Positions 29,210 through 59,518 of a DNA stretch of 64,000 nucleotides are shown piece after piece (the stretch's first letter is position 1; each line of letters opens with the position of its first letter). The notes under the pieces were generated by a model that did no database searches, was not told where the DNA came from, and saw only the letters and a list, made by a program, of their open reading frames with translations. The stretch is from an uncultured Gemmatimonadales bacterium (lineage in GTDB: Bacteria; Gemmatimonadota; Gemmatimonadetes; Longimicrobiales; Gaopeijiaceae). A program made the position numbers and the translations under genes. The DNA is taken from assembly GCA_937919655.1 (NCBI GenBank), contig CALFPJ010000022.1, forward strand, positions 1 to 64,000, in the 5' to 3' direction.

Positions 29210-29303
29210 CGGGAACGTGTGGGAATCGAACCCACCTACCCGGGTTCTAGCCGGGCTGCACAGTTTTGAAGACCGCCGGAGACACCAGTCCCCCTCCGCC
29301 CCC
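29210..29303 (-). tRNA. selC: tRNA-Sec (anticodon UCA)
   Basis: Read on the minus strand, the 94-base gene folds as a selenocysteine tRNA. It has a six-pair D stem with a four-base loop (GGGGAC TGGT GTCTCC), an anticodon stem GCGGT/ACTGT around the loop CTTCAAA with anticodon TCA, and a long variable arm pairing CCCGG with CCGGG. The T arm is GTGGG TTCGATT CCCAC. The acceptor pairs GGGGGCG with CGTTCCC, including two G-U pairs, and the eighth position is a G-A mismatch. CCA is not encoded. The long extra arm, four-base D loop and UCA anticodon exclude a suppressor or tRNA-Ser. selA, selB and selD are not in the window. Confidence 0.9.
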
Positions 29304-48251: not shown

Positions 48252-48287
48252 GCGTTTTGGGCGCTGGCGCGGGTCCCTCGGCTACCT

Positions 48288-48388
48288 CGTGCCCCGCCTC
48301 CGGAAGGTGGCTCTCCGGGGGCCAGGGCTTGTGAGGATTTCGAAGCGGGCAGCGGCCCCCTGCGCGATCCTTCCTCCGACGGGGCACG
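48288..48388 (+). repeat. Hairpin element D (family 2), downstream of the barrel gene
   Basis: Three nested stems are visible: P1 CGTGCCCCG (48288-48296) with CGGGGCACG (48380-48388), P2 GGAAGG (48302-48307) with CCTTCC (48369-48374), and P3 GGGGGCC (48317-48323) with GGCCCCC (48354-48360). The junction strings TGGCTCTCCG and CTGCGCGAT recur in element E, where all stems have different sequences that still pair. It lies on the same strand as the gene before it, after that gene's terminator. Confidence 0.7.
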
Positions 48389-48495
48389 GGCGCGCCGACG
48401 GACCGGACAGTGGCCAGATGTGGAGATCCCGGGCTACCGTGGCCCTGCGGGGTGCTCCACGCTGCGCGGGAGCATAGGCAGGGGCGCCCGCCGCC

Positions 48496-48707: not shown

Positions 48708-48839
48708 CGGGGTGCGCGTGGCGACGCACCCCCGGAGGGCGCATCGCGCAGCGGCCCCTAACCCGGCAACCGTACCCAATAAGCACTAGGCCGCGGAGAG
48801 CCAGCGCCCCGGAGGGGGTGCGTCGCCACGCGCACCCCG
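48708..48839 (-). repeat. Hairpin element E (family 2), downstream of mlaD
   Basis: Outer stem P1 is a perfect 26-base inverted repeat (48708-48733 with 48814-48839). Inside it, on the minus strand, P2 is GGGCGC with GCGCCC (48804-48809 with 48737-48742) and P3 is GCGGCC with GGCCGC (48789-48794 with 48751-48756). The conserved junctions TGGCTCTCCG and CTGCGCGAT match element D, and so does CCTCCG on both sides of P2. It begins 8 bases after the mlaD stop and has the same strand as mlaD. Confidence 0.8.
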
Positions 48840-53700: not shown

Positions 53701-53714
53701 TTGGTTTTGGGACG

Positions 53715-53883
53715 CCCGGGTTGGAGACGGCTGCCGGTCTCGGGGCCGCTCGCCCTCGTTTTGGGAGGTCTGGGTTCGGGGGCTCGCTAAACGACGCACC
53801 TCTTCTTTTTATTTCGCGTCCTCTTTTTTACTCCGCTTCGGCGCGCCGATTGCCCCGTGACCGGCAGCCGTCTCCACCCCGGG
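53715..53883 (+). repeat. Hairpin element A (family 1), downstream of the SDR gene
   Basis: The outer stem pairs 53715-53746 with 53852-53883, 30 of 32 positions, built around GGAGACGGCTGCCGGTC. Inside, CGCTCGCCC and the 20-base core GGGGGCTCGCTAAACGACGC (53778-53797) are shared with elements B and C, as is CGGCGCGCCGATTG (with element B). The outer stem sequence is unlike the other copies. It stands on the same strand as the SDR gene. Confidence 0.8.
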
Positions 53884-54211
53884 CTCCCGGTTGTGTCGCG
53901 GGCACGGGGGTCGTGTTGGCGTGAGGCCTTGGGACGGCTGGTTGGTGGGGTGAGCATTGGCTCAGTGGTTCGAGCGGGGGGCACGGGAACGGCCGCGGCT
54001 ATCGCCGGCGCGGGGGGGGTTCGTAGCGGCTGCATGCATGATAGCCGGAGCCGGCAGATGCACGCGCGGTTAATACGCCAATGTGTCGCGCGCAGTGGCC
54101 CCCTCTTCGAGCCGACCAGGGCCAGCCACCCAGCGAGCCCGTCGCGAGCGACTCAAGTCATGCCGGCCCAACCGGCGCAGCCGGACAGTGTTCAAAAAGC
54201 CGTTGTGGTTG
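53884..54211. other. Spacer between hairpin elements A and C
   Basis: No gene is seen on either strand. The stretch is GC-rich with G-runs (for example GCGGGGGGGG near 54012) and several short palindromes such as GCCGG CCCAA CCGGC near 54153. None could be matched to the hairpin families. Confidence 0.4.
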
Positions 54212-54382
54212 GGTGAGCGCGACGAAGGGTGTGGTTCCCGGGGTATCGACGCGGTGCGAGCGGAAGTACTAAGAGGATGCGAGCAAACCGGAAGCACCGC
54301 GTCGTTAAGCGAGCCCCCGAACGAAGAAACCCCCACCGACGGGCGAGCGAACCCGAGAACCACACCCTTGGTCGTGCTCACC
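54212..54382 (-). repeat. Hairpin element C (family 1), downstream of the M14 gene
   Basis: The arms 54212-54242 and 54352-54382 pair over 31 positions with three mismatches (AGGGTGTGGTTC against its complement). On the minus strand the core GGGGGCTCGCTTAACGACGC (54299-54318) differs from elements A and B at one base. A perfect inner stem, CGACGCGGTGC with GCACCGCGTCG, follows. It is on the strand of the M14 gene, just beyond its terminator. Confidence 0.8.
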
Positions 54383-54392
54383 ACCCCCCCAC

Positions 54393-54439
54393 AAAAGCAA
54401 AACGGGGCACCCAGCCAGAACGATCAGCCGGATGCCCCG
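54393..54439 (-). terminator. Terminator after the M14 gene
   Basis: On the minus strand CGGGGCATCCGGCTG and GGCTGGGTGCCCCG pair imperfectly and are followed by TTTTGCTTTT. It begins about 18 bases after the M14 stop codon. Confidence 0.75.
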
Positions 54440-54456
54440 AAGGCCCACAAAGAGAT

Positions 54457-57180
54457 CTACGAGATCGGTCGCTGCTTAGCCGCCCCGTAGTAGATCCCGT
54501 TGAAGAGGAACCCAAACGTCCCGTGCGGTTGTGCCCGGAAGGTGATCTTCGGGCCGAAGATGAACAGCTTGCCCTGCCCGTAGTCGGCCTCAATCGCGCC
54601 TACGCCGTTCTCCAGGTACTTCTCTCCCCAAGACCATCCACTCTTCAGCGGACTGGCTGTGTCGTACCAGCCCACACGGCGAACGCCTTGGGCTGCTGCC
54701 CCGGCCCCCAGCGTGAACGTCGGGCTGTGGCTGAAGAGTACGTCCACGCGATCCTTGAATCCGTGCGTTAGGGGACTCGTGTGATCGACCTTCATGTCGA
54801 GCACCGAGCCCGGCGTGAAGTACTGCTCACGGGTCAGCGGAACCCCGTTTTCCATGAGGTGGTTGGTCACCGGCAGCCCCGCGTGCTGGGCCAGGCTCGC
54901 CGATGAGCCGATCGCGATGGCGGCGCCGCCTGCACGCACGTAATCGAGAATGTTAGAAACACTGCCATCCACACTCATCGAGCCCACCCGACCACGGTAC
55001 TCGGCCGGCAGGTCGGAGAGGTCCGGGCCACTGCCGCCGCGCCCACCGCGGCCACCCTGACCTCCCTCGGCCACCGCCTCGGGAATCGCGCCGTCATCGA
55101 ACACCAAGACGTCGTACTGAGAAAGGTCACCGTCAAAGTCCGGCGGATACAGCACGTCGAAGTCGAACTCGAAGTCTTCAAGGATCATGCGTGTCCAGCC
55201 GGACGGCATGGACCCGCCGTATTGGTCCCAGAGCCCGATCTTCACCGGCTCAAGTTCCATCGCGTTGCCCGTCGGCCGACTCGCGACCCCCATGAACCTG
55301 AGGCCCTTCTCAGACGCCAGTCGATCGACGGTCGCTCTATCTGTCTCGAGGTAGAACGCACCCTCTTCGAAGTCCTGTCCACCGGCACTGACAGCGTCCG
55401 TATACCAATAAGCGCTCCCGCCGCCGGCGAGCACTCGGTTCACCGCAATGAACGCGTCGTTGATGTGGTCGACCAAGTATCCGCTGGCGTTGTCCGCCCC
55501 GGCCACGATGCCCGTCGGCGGTGCCGACAGAATGTCATCGATCAGCTCGAAGGGTCCATCGAAGCCGTCCATGACCCGATCGAATTCCACACCCATCTGC
55601 CAAGCCAGGGTCCACCCCGTGTTGTCGTACGGTGCCGTTGGGGGCGCTCCCGGATACGCAAAGTCATTGGGGTGATCCTGCTTCTCAAACATGTCGAGCA
55701 CGTGCGGCCTGAAGGCCTGAGCAGTGCTCACGACGTAGGAGCCCGCGTCATACGACTTGCCAGCCACGGTGAAGGCGGAGGTCGCGCGATGCACATCGAC
55801 TCCGTTGTACAGCAGCGTATTCACGAACTTTGTTGCCGTGAGAAAGTCGCGCTGGATTGAAGGGATTATGAAGCCGCGAGGATCTCGGTCGGCGGGCGCC
55901 CGTAACACCATCTCCCAGTCGGCCCGAGTCCCGCGTCCAACTGTCGCCTCAGCGGCGTCGATCTCACTGGGGAACGTTGTCCACGAGTCGGCAGTGCCGC
56001 GCTCGATCGAGTTGGTGCCCATCTGCCAGATATTGAACAGCAAATGATCTGAATTCCTCGACGCGAAGTCGAGAACGGCCCAGTTAGCGGTCTGCGAGTA
56101 TTCGATCGACTGCCGGAAATGCCAGATGCCCGGCTCGACCGGCAGCGGGATATCTGCTCGCGAAATTTGGTTTCGAGGGATGAACGGAATTTCGACCGGC
56201 GTCGGGTTCCCGATGGTCTCCGTCAAGAGCCCGATCATGTTCTTGAAGTAGGGCGTAGTCCTCAGCCCACCGTTCCACCAAGTCGAGTAGGACGCGCCCG
56301 AGCGCATGGTTGTGCCCCCCTTCCCCTCCTCGACGAAGCGGTCGTGCATGGCCGAACCCACCCGGTCCAGCCCCGTGATGATAAGCGGGTCGAGGTAGTG
56401 ATTCGGCGGATCCCGGAACGGCGGAGCGAACATCACCGTTCCAGCTGGGCCGGTCTGGTGATGATTGTACACGATTTGCGGATACCACGTCCGGTACATC
56501 GACGTGTTGATGTTTTGGGTCTCGGCCAGCGCAGCCATGTAGAAGTCACGGTTGTTATCGTGACCTGCATACTTGTTATAGAGGACGGGCACGCCGCTTG
56601 TAGTACGCTCCATCGGATCGTCGTGGCGCATATACCAGTTGGCCACCAATGCGTGACCATCAGGGTTCGCGTGCGTCGCCAAGATGATCACGTCATCCAG
56701 AATTCGTAGCGTCTCTGCATCGGTGTAGTCGTTCAGGCGATACACCAATTCGGCGAGCTGCTGCGCACCGAGGACCTCGGTCGCGTGCAGTCCGCCATCA
56801 ATCCAAATGATCGCCTTGCCCTCGTCAGCCAACTCGCGCGCTTCGGTCTCGCTCAGCCCTTCGGCCTTCGCCAAGCGCCGCGCGATGTCGCGATACCGGT
56901 CTAGATTGCGATGATTCTCCGGCGACGTGATGACCGCCTGGATGTGCGGACGACCTTCCTCAGTGAAGCCGATCGTGTCCAAAATCATCCGATCGGACTC
57001 GTTCGCGAGCTTCACCCAGTACTGATGGAGCTCTTCATAGTTGATCAGTTCATAGTCAGCCCCGATCTCGTGACCGAATTCCTCCTCCGGCGTGGTAACC
57101 CGGTGCTGCGCCTGCAGGGGGGAGGCAAAAGCCACGACCGCGAGGGCAAAGAATACTGTCCAGCGAACACAAGTTTTCAT
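54457..57180 (-). CDS. M14-family zinc carboxypeptidase, large secreted form
   Basis: The 907-residue exported protein (signal FFALAVVAFASPLQAQ) has the M14 zinc site HATE in WIDGGLHATEVLG and the third ligand His in YNHHQTGPAGT. The substrate-site NNRD is in YAGHDNNRDFYM, and the catalytic Glu in LLTETIGNP. About 450 residues after the catalytic domain form a separate beta-rich tail, with a Gly-rich loop (GQGGRGGRGGSGP). Peptidases of this size are typical of Gemmatimonadota. The start ATG at 57180 is picked by the signal peptide. Confidence 0.88.
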   Translation of the reverse strand: MKTCVRWTVFFALAVVAFASPLQAQHRVTTPEEEFGHEIGADYELINYEELHQYWVKLANESDRMILDTIGFTEEGRPHIQAVITSPENHRNLDRYRDIARRLAKAEGLSETEARELADEGKAIIWIDGGLHATEVLGAQQLAELVYRLNDYTDAETLRILDDVIILATHANPDGHALVANWYMRHDDPMERTTSGVPVLYNKYAGHDNNRDFYMAALAETQNINTSMYRTWYPQIVYNHHQTGPAGTVMFAPPFRDPPNHYLDPLIITGLDRVGSAMHDRFVEEGKGGTTMRSGASYSTWWNGGLRTTPYFKNMIGLLTETIGNPTPVEIPFIPRNQISRADIPLPVEPGIWHFRQSIEYSQTANWAVLDFASRNSDHLLFNIWQMGTNSIERGTADSWTTFPSEIDAAEATVGRGTRADWEMVLRAPADRDPRGFIIPSIQRDFLTATKFVNTLLYNGVDVHRATSAFTVAGKSYDAGSYVVSTAQAFRPHVLDMFEKQDHPNDFAYPGAPPTAPYDNTGWTLAWQMGVEFDRVMDGFDGPFELIDDILSAPPTGIVAGADNASGYLVDHINDAFIAVNRVLAGGGSAYWYTDAVSAGGQDFEEGAFYLETDRATVDRLASEKGLRFMGVASRPTGNAMELEPVKIGLWDQYGGSMPSGWTRMILEDFEFDFDVLYPPDFDGDLSQYDVLVFDDGAIPEAVAEGGQGGRGGRGGSGPDLSDLPAEYRGRVGSMSVDGSVSNILDYVRAGGAAIAIGSSASLAQHAGLPVTNHLMENGVPLTREQYFTPGSVLDMKVDHTSPLTHGFKDRVDVLFSHSPTFTLGAGAAAQGVRRVGWYDTASPLKSGWSWGEKYLENGVGAIEADYGQGKLFIFGPKITFRAQPHGTFGFLFNGIYYGAAKQRPIS

Positions 57181-57313
57181 GCCGGTCACTTTTCTCCAAA
57201 AGTTGATCATCCTACCCAGATGACTGATTCTATTGTTGCTCTTCCACCGAAACAAAGTACGGCTTCACTCCCGTTCCCGCCCTACCTTCCCGGCCTCAGC
57301 GCGAAAGACTCCG

Positions 57314-59347
57314 ATGGCTATTGTTAGACACTTTTCGACCGCCCTTCTGTTGAGTGCAGGCCTCGTGTTCGCCGGCGGCGCGAACGCACAGCAGGGTCCC
57401 GTTCGTCTGCTCGCTGACCCCGCGACTGCAGTTCTCGAGGTCGGCACGTCCATGACGCTGGTTGTGCGCGCTGTGGACACCGCGGGTCAGTCGGTCGAAC
57501 TAGACCTCCGTTTCGCGGCTCCCATGTCGGTTCTCCGCTACCGCGACGGGACGCTCCAAGCGTTCTCGGCCGGAGACTTCGAGATCATCGCCACGGCGGT
57601 GGTGGCCGCCGGAGGAGTTGCCCCGGAACCACTACGGATCCCGGTAACGATCACCTGGCCTGCCATCGACCGCGTGGACCTGAATGCTTCGGGTGAGCGA
57701 CTTTTCGTGGGTACGATGATCGCGCATGACCCCGCCGTCTTCCACCGCGATGGGACCCGGCGACCGGAACCCTCGATCACATGGACCTCATCCGAGCCCG
57801 ACGTCGCCACGGTCAACCGATACGGAGACGTCACGGCCTTCATGACCGGCGGGGTGACAATCACCGCTTCCGTGGAAGGTGAGATCGACGTCCCAATCAT
57901 GTTCGAGGTCGCCACCTTCCCGGCCACCGAATTGAGTATCCAGGGCGGAGTCGACGCGGCACGCACCGGCGACGTGGTCCACTTCTCCGCCGCCGCCCGA
58001 GGGCCTGCGGGTGAGCTCGGAGACCTGCCGATCACCTGGGCCTACACCTTCGTGCCAGACGATTCCATTCGATCGCCTGGTTCAGCAGCGATCGTTCACG
58101 ATGGGGCGTTCGTGGCGGAAGTGCCCGGCCGCTACACCGTCCTCGCAATTTCTGGCCCACTGACGGCCCGTAAGAGCGTCCTCGTGCATGGCCGTGATGC
58201 GGTCCAACAGATCGAACTCGAGGGACGCGGCTCCGTGTCGAACGTCCACACCTCCGACCTGTGGGTCTTCGAAGGGGTGGACCGGCGCGACTACGCGATC
58301 ACCGGGACATGGTCCGCCTCTGGCTGGGCATATTTCTGGGACGTTACGGACCCGACCCACATCACCAAGACCGACTCGATTCAGGTGGACGCACGCACGG
58401 TCAACGACGTAAAGGTTTCGCCGAACGGGCGGTACGCCGCGCTTTCTCGAGAGGGAGCTTCGAACCGTAGCAACGGCGTGGTGATTCTCGACATGGCCGA
58501 CCCGGCGCATCCTCGGGTGGCTTCGACGTTCGAATCGCACGGAGTCACTGGCGGCGTACACAACATGTTCGCCACTGATGACTACCTGTTTGCGCTCGCC
58601 AACGGCGATAAGTACGTCATCATCGACGTCAGAGACCCCTACGACCCCAAGTACGTCAGCGAATACAACCACCCAAACAGCCGCGTGCACGACGTCTGGG
58701 TGCGCGACGGCATCGCTTACTCATCTGAATGGCAGACTGGCGTGGTGGTCGTGGACGTGGGCAATGGAAAGTGGGGAGGCACGATCGAACATCCGGTATT
58801 TGTCACGGCTGTCCCCTACCCCGTTGGCGCGACACACGCGGCTTTTCCATACGAGCAAGTGGCGACCGGGAAGTTCTACCTCTTCCTGGGAGACGAAATT
58901 TCTGGCGGGCGCGGTGCGGCCTGGGAAGGCCCCGGAGCAGACAACCAGCGCTACAACCCGGCGACCGGCGAAGGGGGCGTTCAAGGTCGGATGAGTGGTT
59001 ACCTGCACGTCATTGACTTCACCGACCCTGAAAATCCGAAGGATGTCGCACGCTACGAGGTCCCGGAAGCCGGAGCCCACAACCTGTGGGTAGAGGACGA
59101 CGTGCTCTACCAGGCTTACTACAAGGGCGGGCTGAGGGTCGTCGACGTCTCGGGTGAGCTCATGGGCGACTTAGGCGCACAGGGCCGCGAGATCGCCGTT
59201 TACAAGCCTCAGGATCCGGGTGGCTTCTTGGCGAACCAAGTGAGCGTGTGGGGGGGGCAGCCGTATAAGGGGCACGTGTTCTTTTCGGACATGAACTCCG
59301 GACTGTGGGCGGCCAAGGTCATGCCAAAAGGGAGCCCGATCAGTTAG
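57314..59347 (+). CDS. Secreted protein with Ig-like domains and LVIVD repeats
   Basis: The exported protein has 677 residues (signal STALLLSAGLVFAGGANA). Two to three bacterial Ig-like (BIG2-type) segments fill residues 30-300 (VELDLRFAAP, TWTSSEPDVATVNRYGDVT). From about 320, LVIVD-type propeller repeats follow (SNGVVILDMADPAHPRVAST, KYVIIDVRDPYDPKYV, HVIDFTDPENPKDVARY). It is probably surface-exposed with binding function; no enzyme motif is seen. It is divergent from the M14 gene over 133 bases, and hairpin element B begins 4 bases after the stop. Confidence 0.75.
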   Translation: MAIVRHFSTALLLSAGLVFAGGANAQQGPVRLLADPATAVLEVGTSMTLVVRAVDTAGQSVELDLRFAAPMSVLRYRDGTLQAFSAGDFEIIATAVVAAGGVAPEPLRIPVTITWPAIDRVDLNASGERLFVGTMIAHDPAVFHRDGTRRPEPSITWTSSEPDVATVNRYGDVTAFMTGGVTITASVEGEIDVPIMFEVATFPATELSIQGGVDAARTGDVVHFSAAARGPAGELGDLPITWAYTFVPDDSIRSPGSAAIVHDGAFVAEVPGRYTVLAISGPLTARKSVLVHGRDAVQQIELEGRGSVSNVHTSDLWVFEGVDRRDYAITGTWSASGWAYFWDVTDPTHITKTDSIQVDARTVNDVKVSPNGRYAALSREGASNRSNGVVILDMADPAHPRVASTFESHGVTGGVHNMFATDDYLFALANGDKYVIIDVRDPYDPKYVSEYNHPNSRVHDVWVRDGIAYSSEWQTGVVVVDVGNGKWGGTIEHPVFVTAVPYPVGATHAAFPYEQVATGKFYLFLGDEISGGRGAAWEGPGADNQRYNPATGEGGVQGRMSGYLHVIDFTDPENPKDVARYEVPEAGAHNLWVEDDVLYQAYYKGGLRVVDVSGELMGDLGAQGREIAVYKPQDPGGFLANQVSVWGGQPYKGHVFFSDMNSGLWAAKVMPKGSPIS

Positions 59348-59351
59348 GGAT

Positions 59352-59518
59352 GGTGGCGTCGATTTGGCTTGGTGCCCCGGGGCCGCTCGCCCAACTGCGG
59401 GGGGTCTGGGGGCGGGGGCTCGCTAAACGACGCGCCGAGTCTTGTTTTTCGGGGAGGGGCTACTCACTCCTCGTCGGCGCGCCGATTGCCCGGGGCACCA
59501 AGCCAAATCGGCGCCACC
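59352..59518 (+). repeat. Hairpin element B (family 1), downstream of the LVIVD gene
   Basis: Arms 59352-59381 and 59489-59518 pair at all but one of 30 positions, and that one is a G-U pair. The stem sequence (CGATTTGGCTTGGTGCCC) shares nothing with those of elements A and C. The core GGGGGCTCGCTAAACGACGC is at 59414-59433, and CGGCGCGCCGATTG is at the inner edge, as in A. It has the same strand as the LVIVD gene. Confidence 0.8.

Follow-up and report, generated by a model that had tools for sequence, protein, structure and literature searches.

A stretch of 64,000 nucleotides of Gemmatimonadota DNA, analysed as a whole and called the window here, contains three hairpin elements, A, B and C, in which a common core is enclosed by long outer stems that are dissimilar in sequence and yet well paired in each case. 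The question raised by this locus is how such stems can lose their sequence and keep their pairing, and to what kind of element they belong. The features concerned, together with one further predicted gene of the window, are as follows.

53714-53884 (+), element A, whole unit; outer arms (P1b) 53714-53746 and 53852-53884
53747-53797 (+), A: P2 hairpin (CGCTCGCCC ... GGGGGCTCGC), junction and 5′ strand of P3 (CGACGC)
53843-53856 (+), A: 3′ strand of P3, junction ATT and basal P1a strand GCCCC
59352-59518 (+), element B, whole unit; arms 59352-59381 and 59489-59518; core-model match 59377-59496
54212-54382 (−), element C, whole unit; arms 54352-54382 (5′) and 54212-54242 (3′); core-model match 54235-54356
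54403-54439 (−), canonical U-tract terminator of the M14 peptidase gene, upstream of C and outside the element
29210-29303 (−), tRNA-Sec gene (anticodon tca), predicted by ARAGORN

The coordinates of A, B and C given in an earlier note on this DNA were reproduced, and the sequences described there as common to the three were located. The 20-mer GGGGGCTCGCTAAACGACGC is found at 53778-53797 (+) in A and at 59414-59433 (+) in B, its version in C is GGGGGCTCGCTTAACGACGC with one difference (54299-54318, −), and CGCTCGCCC stands upstream of the 20-mer in each element. The outer arms are 94% (A), 97% (B) and 90% (C) complementary, are the top three of the 16 inverted repeats of at least 16 nt in the window, and cannot be aligned with one another, as had been described. 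Among 49 copies of the family, cognate arms paired with a mean score of 40 (A 50, B 47, C 42), compared with 13 (sd 4) for arms swapped between copies. Element A begins about 14 nt past the stop codon of an SDR gene (gene end 53700) and B 5 nt past the stop of its upstream gene (end 59347), and C follows just beyond the canonical terminator that belongs to the M14 peptidase gene. Hairpins of a second type, built on the same plan with long arms of unrelated sequence but with the core TGGCTCTCCG ... GCGCGAT, are present at 48272-48404 (+) and 48708-48839 (−); when the exact pattern was searched for in 121 family genomes, only these two copies were returned as such, the rest being coding-like by eye.

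The covariance model was built on the core only (R1, refined as R2), starting from an alignment of the five intact copies found first in the window genome and of copies from related genomes. With this model, a search of the kind the earlier note had proposed recovered about 60 copies; of the 121 genomes covered from this Gemmatimonadota family, 23-24 carry the element, with 1-10 copies per genome and G029 as the richest. The window genome (G000) carries at least four copies besides A, B and C, namely C96:14237+, C96:14541−, C96:123748+ and a decayed one at C89:1966−. In a phylum-wide sample of 395 genomes every match fell within the same family, except for one in G060, which was rejected as a copy after its sequence had been read by eye as a cobalamin riboswitch. 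For the window and 11 loci no Rfam 15 family reached its gathering score (C matched MIR1437 at 23 bits, with a gathering score of 168), and neither a pattern scan of IMG/VR nor phage and plasmid BLAST gave a match. A pan-bacterial pattern scan yielded 52 matches; the clear model matches were Gemmatimonadota records already included (PL23a_bin.107, CSSed162cmA_149) and the remaining ones were weak, the best (E 4e-5) belonging to an Actinomycetes MAG (L200). Assemblies of several relatives end within or beside the element (e.g. G047:C95, G017:C42 and G017:C168), and copy numbers from draft genomes are therefore probably low. Two loci have an altered form. At L123 (G135 C324, 2620-3149) there are tandem units of about 138 bp, corresponding to most of the element minus the start of P2. 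In L105 (G000 C89:1853-2110), a decayed copy of A is preceded by about 50 nt of its original flank, in which the 3′ end of the SDR gene is included, and some distance after it comes a piece similar to C's outer arm; the locus is a displaced A-C segment behind a penicillin-binding-protein-like gene.

The copies share a fold of about 170 nt, in which the long outer stem P1b and the short basal stem P1a lead to a three-way junction with the inner hairpins P2 and P3. The consensus consists of P1a (GGGC/GCCC), P2 (CGCTCGCC ... GGGGCTCGC), a short junction, P3 and GATN. The invariant part of P2 is (C)GCTCGC opposite GGCTCGCT, and as the sequence reads, a GC-TC/TC-GC pairing that leaves a symmetric TC/TC internal loop is open to GCTCGC/GGCTCGCT; the stem P3 varies freely, with strong covariation. 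Over 48 copies, 91% of the cells pair and two-sided changes occur in 15 of 21 pairs, among them 10 of the 11 in P3. Cells with a two-sided change number 116, versus 32 in shuffles, the covariation score is 0.36 versus 0.13, and none of 500 shuffles attained any structure measure. The alignment was fitted to the model and is thereby biased toward structure, but the slid structures used as controls carry the same bias and do not reach these values. These values bear out the idea of a structured element in which stems are kept as stems. In the copy L106 the core is intact, but P1 comprises only about 8 bp.

Most copies stand at the ends of genes. In sense direction and directly downstream of a gene or tRNA gene are 39 of the 45 placeable copies (39 versus 6, p ~5e-7), a count that includes the same gene in several genomes; over about 37 independent loci the sense placement has p ~4e-5. 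Placement was based on ORF length and codon-position composition, with doubtful cases decided by hand, so that individual assignments may be in error. Between the stop codon and the start of the arm there are usually no more than a few tens of nt, and the copies not in sense behind a gene are C96:14237+ and C96:123748+ in the window genome and four others. According to our reading of the translations, the upstream genes are functionally mixed (pilC, rpoC, PDH-E2, ssb, dipeptidase, tRNA-Leu), and the element is found behind pilC in six genera. At L117/L236 (G017 C123) it lies directly 3′ of a tRNA-Leu(taa) gene, and the related copies L233 and L238 lie behind apparent remnants of tRNA 3′ ends.

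A vertically inherited 3′-UTR RNA, that is a regulatory terminator or a protein- or ligand-binding RNA fixed behind genes such as pilC, with the core as functional domain and the outer stem as a clamp, would account for the sense bias, the nearness to stop codons, the recurrence behind pilC in six genera and the invariant junction nucleotides with their covariation. We regard it as unlikely, as the upstream genes are of mixed function, several copies are not in sense, the element is patchy at the same genes within a genus, and core clusters follow the genus and not the gene. At site B, the convergent gene pair is retained in the genomes G001, G049 and G020, where its stop codons are roughly 20-45 nt apart and both element and arms are absent; the SDR/M14 junction in G049 spans about 27 nt, and PDH-E2 in G138 is without the element. 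Presence and absence vary among relatives, a comparison that the earlier note had proposed for close strains, and since these empty sites come from sister species, not strains, the direction of change at each site follows from parsimony. For 41 of 48 copies the nearest core lies within the same genus, and pilC cores of different genera (0.58) are no closer than same-genus copies (0.65). Due to the empty sites and the cores nearest within the genus, copying within lineages is better supported than simple descent at fixed genes; at some sites independent loss of an old element is possible, most easily at PDH-E2, where the downstream gene order has also changed.

The fate of the outer arms can be followed in closely related copies. 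Same-genus pairs with a core identity of at least 0.78, which include some orthologous or neighbouring duplicates, had a mean arm score of 30.8, versus 9.5 (sd 4.4) for cross-genus pairs, and 7 of 8 exceeded the 99th percentile of the cross-genus scores; arm similarity declines with core divergence. Homologous arms occur at different genes in L117/L099, L109/L108 and others (core identity at least 0.78) and, slightly under this cut, in L112/L091 and L098/L100, and the genes of such arm-sharing copies can be unrelated (tRNA-Leu versus an ORF; dipeptidase versus rpoC). In four aligned copy pairs, chosen with their register by the authors, the arm differences comprised 10 two-sided pair-keeping changes, one G-T and four broken pairs. 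The arms are kept between the PDH-E2 orthologues of G017 and G047, and the pilC orthologues of G000 and G001 have arm changes on both strands. Within the window genus arm homology is not visible between loci, the pilC orthologues excepted, and the copies of the window genome combine cores about 68-76% identical with mutually unrelated arms; it is because arms at different loci are at background level in this genus that A, B and C look unrelated. The earlier note had held that inheritance of one repeat was impossible and had named arms conserved like those of an ordinary repeat as the observation that would speak against it; such arms are what the young copies possess (7 of 8 pairs), also at different genes, and this conclusion is not supported.

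The same arm homology bears on the proposal that the core is a mobile insert entering the loop of pre-existing terminator hairpins, with the arms being those of the target. The conserved unit does end near the internal loop between P1a and P1b, and among 41 pilC 3′ ends not called core-bearing, which include the two diverged element copies L124 and L125, 12 form a stem of a length that none of 20 shuffles reaches. However, independent targets would not give young copies at unrelated genes a shared arm sequence, and the empty sites of B, PDH-E2 and SDR/M14 are without a long hairpin; owing to the same-genus arm homology this proposal was downgraded and now appears very unlikely. Rewriting of the arms at insertion, for example by copying of flanking DNA into an inverted repeat, had been suggested in the earlier note and would suit the mutually unrelated arms around similar cores in the window genome, but it is extremely improbable, given that young copies of several genera have homologous arms differing mostly by two-sided pair-keeping changes and that arms are conserved between orthologues. 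Capture of the arms from elsewhere in the window genome was also considered and rejected, as BLAST of the arms returned only the arms themselves and the decayed A-C segment at C89. The palindromic, extragenic copies with some inverted pairs (A/C; C96:14237+/14541−) recall REP/REPIN-type sequences for which a RAYT (Y1) transposase provides the mobility, or else an RNA mobilised by RT, but unless a highly diverged enzyme is at work either can hardly be credited, as Y1_Tnp (PF01797), the enzyme type the earlier note had suggested looking for, occurs in 4 of 121 family genomes and in none that bears the element, and reverse transcriptase does not track the element, most element-rich genomes, G000 and G001 among them, having no RVT_1 listed.

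Among known systems, the stem-loop repeats (SLS) described from intergenic regions of bacteria, with 92 published families (Cozzuto et al. 2008, PMC2267715), are as a type similar to the element in that several intergenic copies have a common secondary structure. The present element, compared here with the SLS type in general, is one of Gemmatimonadota, and it differs in its covarying three-way junction and in its outer 30 bp, which remain paired although no sequence similarity is left between copies. With REP/REPIN sequences and their RAYT (PMC2817692) it has in common extragenic palindromes, lineage-specific copies and palindrome-keeping paired changes, whereas it differs in its length of about 170 nt with a three-way junction, in its 1-10 copies compared with often more than 100, and in the lack of a Y1 transposase in element-bearing genomes. 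By eye, no REP-type head tetranucleotide (GTAG-like) is common to the flanks of the copies. The element is also unlike integron attC sites, as had been noted before: its ends are the arms, which are not conserved between copies in the manner of RYYYAAC/GTTRRRY. Bacterial MITEs include families carrying terminators, e.g. the Correia and EFAR repeats. The element is MITE-like in being short, non-autonomous, often at gene ends and amplified in a lineage-specific manner with presence or absence at orthologous sites; no conserved terminal repeats, target-site duplication, parent transposase or autonomous relative were identified for the copies, whose exact borders no close empty site fixes.

On balance it is rather probable that the three hairpins of the window have diverged from one structured element, non-autonomous and MITE-like, about 170 nt long and confined to one Gemmatimonadota family, which is copied within lineages as a whole unit to gene ends, with arms drifting in pairs and a probable role as terminator or at the 3′ end. 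The family, its fold, the multiplication within each lineage, the passing on of arms with paired changes and the position at gene ends are evident from the data described above, and we infer transposition as the copying route; new copies would settle mostly just 3′ of stop codons in sense direction. After copying, the conserved junction nucleotides would hold while the arms drift with pairing retained, either through selection or through replication template switching. As only pairing would matter in the arms, both strands could change together until copies appear unrelated. Template switching can yield multibase compensatory changes in stems (Monttinen and Loytynoja 2022, PMC8794818), and the RNA hairpins maintained by it illustrate a route to compensatory change without single-mutant intermediates; it is a process and not an element family, and its role for the present arms is that of a candidate. 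More speculatively, the three-way junction with the invariant GCTCGC/GGCTCGCT might be the recognition or catalytic fold, as folded ssDNA or RNA, of an undescribed mobilising system that copies hairpins, arms included, to gene 3′ ends in transcript orientation.

With respect to termination, neither a U-tract nor a hairpin with a direct T-run occurs at the intact outer stems of the three window elements, which are in this respect indeed unlike a plain U-tract terminator, and the M14 gene has a canonical terminator of its own ahead of C. Behind pilC of G000, G001 and G043, the 5′ half of the element is a hairpin of 15-18 bp followed by a T-rich stretch, and some diverged or truncated copies form a hairpin with a T-run. 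L116 has a core from which invariant nucleotides have been lost and arms that match those of its orthologue L099. These pilC hairpins and the arms of L116 fit the use of a hairpin at the gene end, with a core that is dispensable at some sites. From such sequence features, the sense hairpin probably serves, or is tolerated, as a transcription terminator or 3′-end stabiliser of the upstream gene.

The family represents an uncatalogued structured element that accompanies the 3′ ends of core genes, in a phylum that has received little study. It also calls for caution, as a fixed core between unrelated arms need not mean that arms have been replaced. Young, intermediate and old copies in related genomes form a natural series in which long stems range from near-identical to unrecognisable yet paired, and due to this graded series the question of how stems keep their pairing, by selection or by template-switch repair, becomes directly testable.
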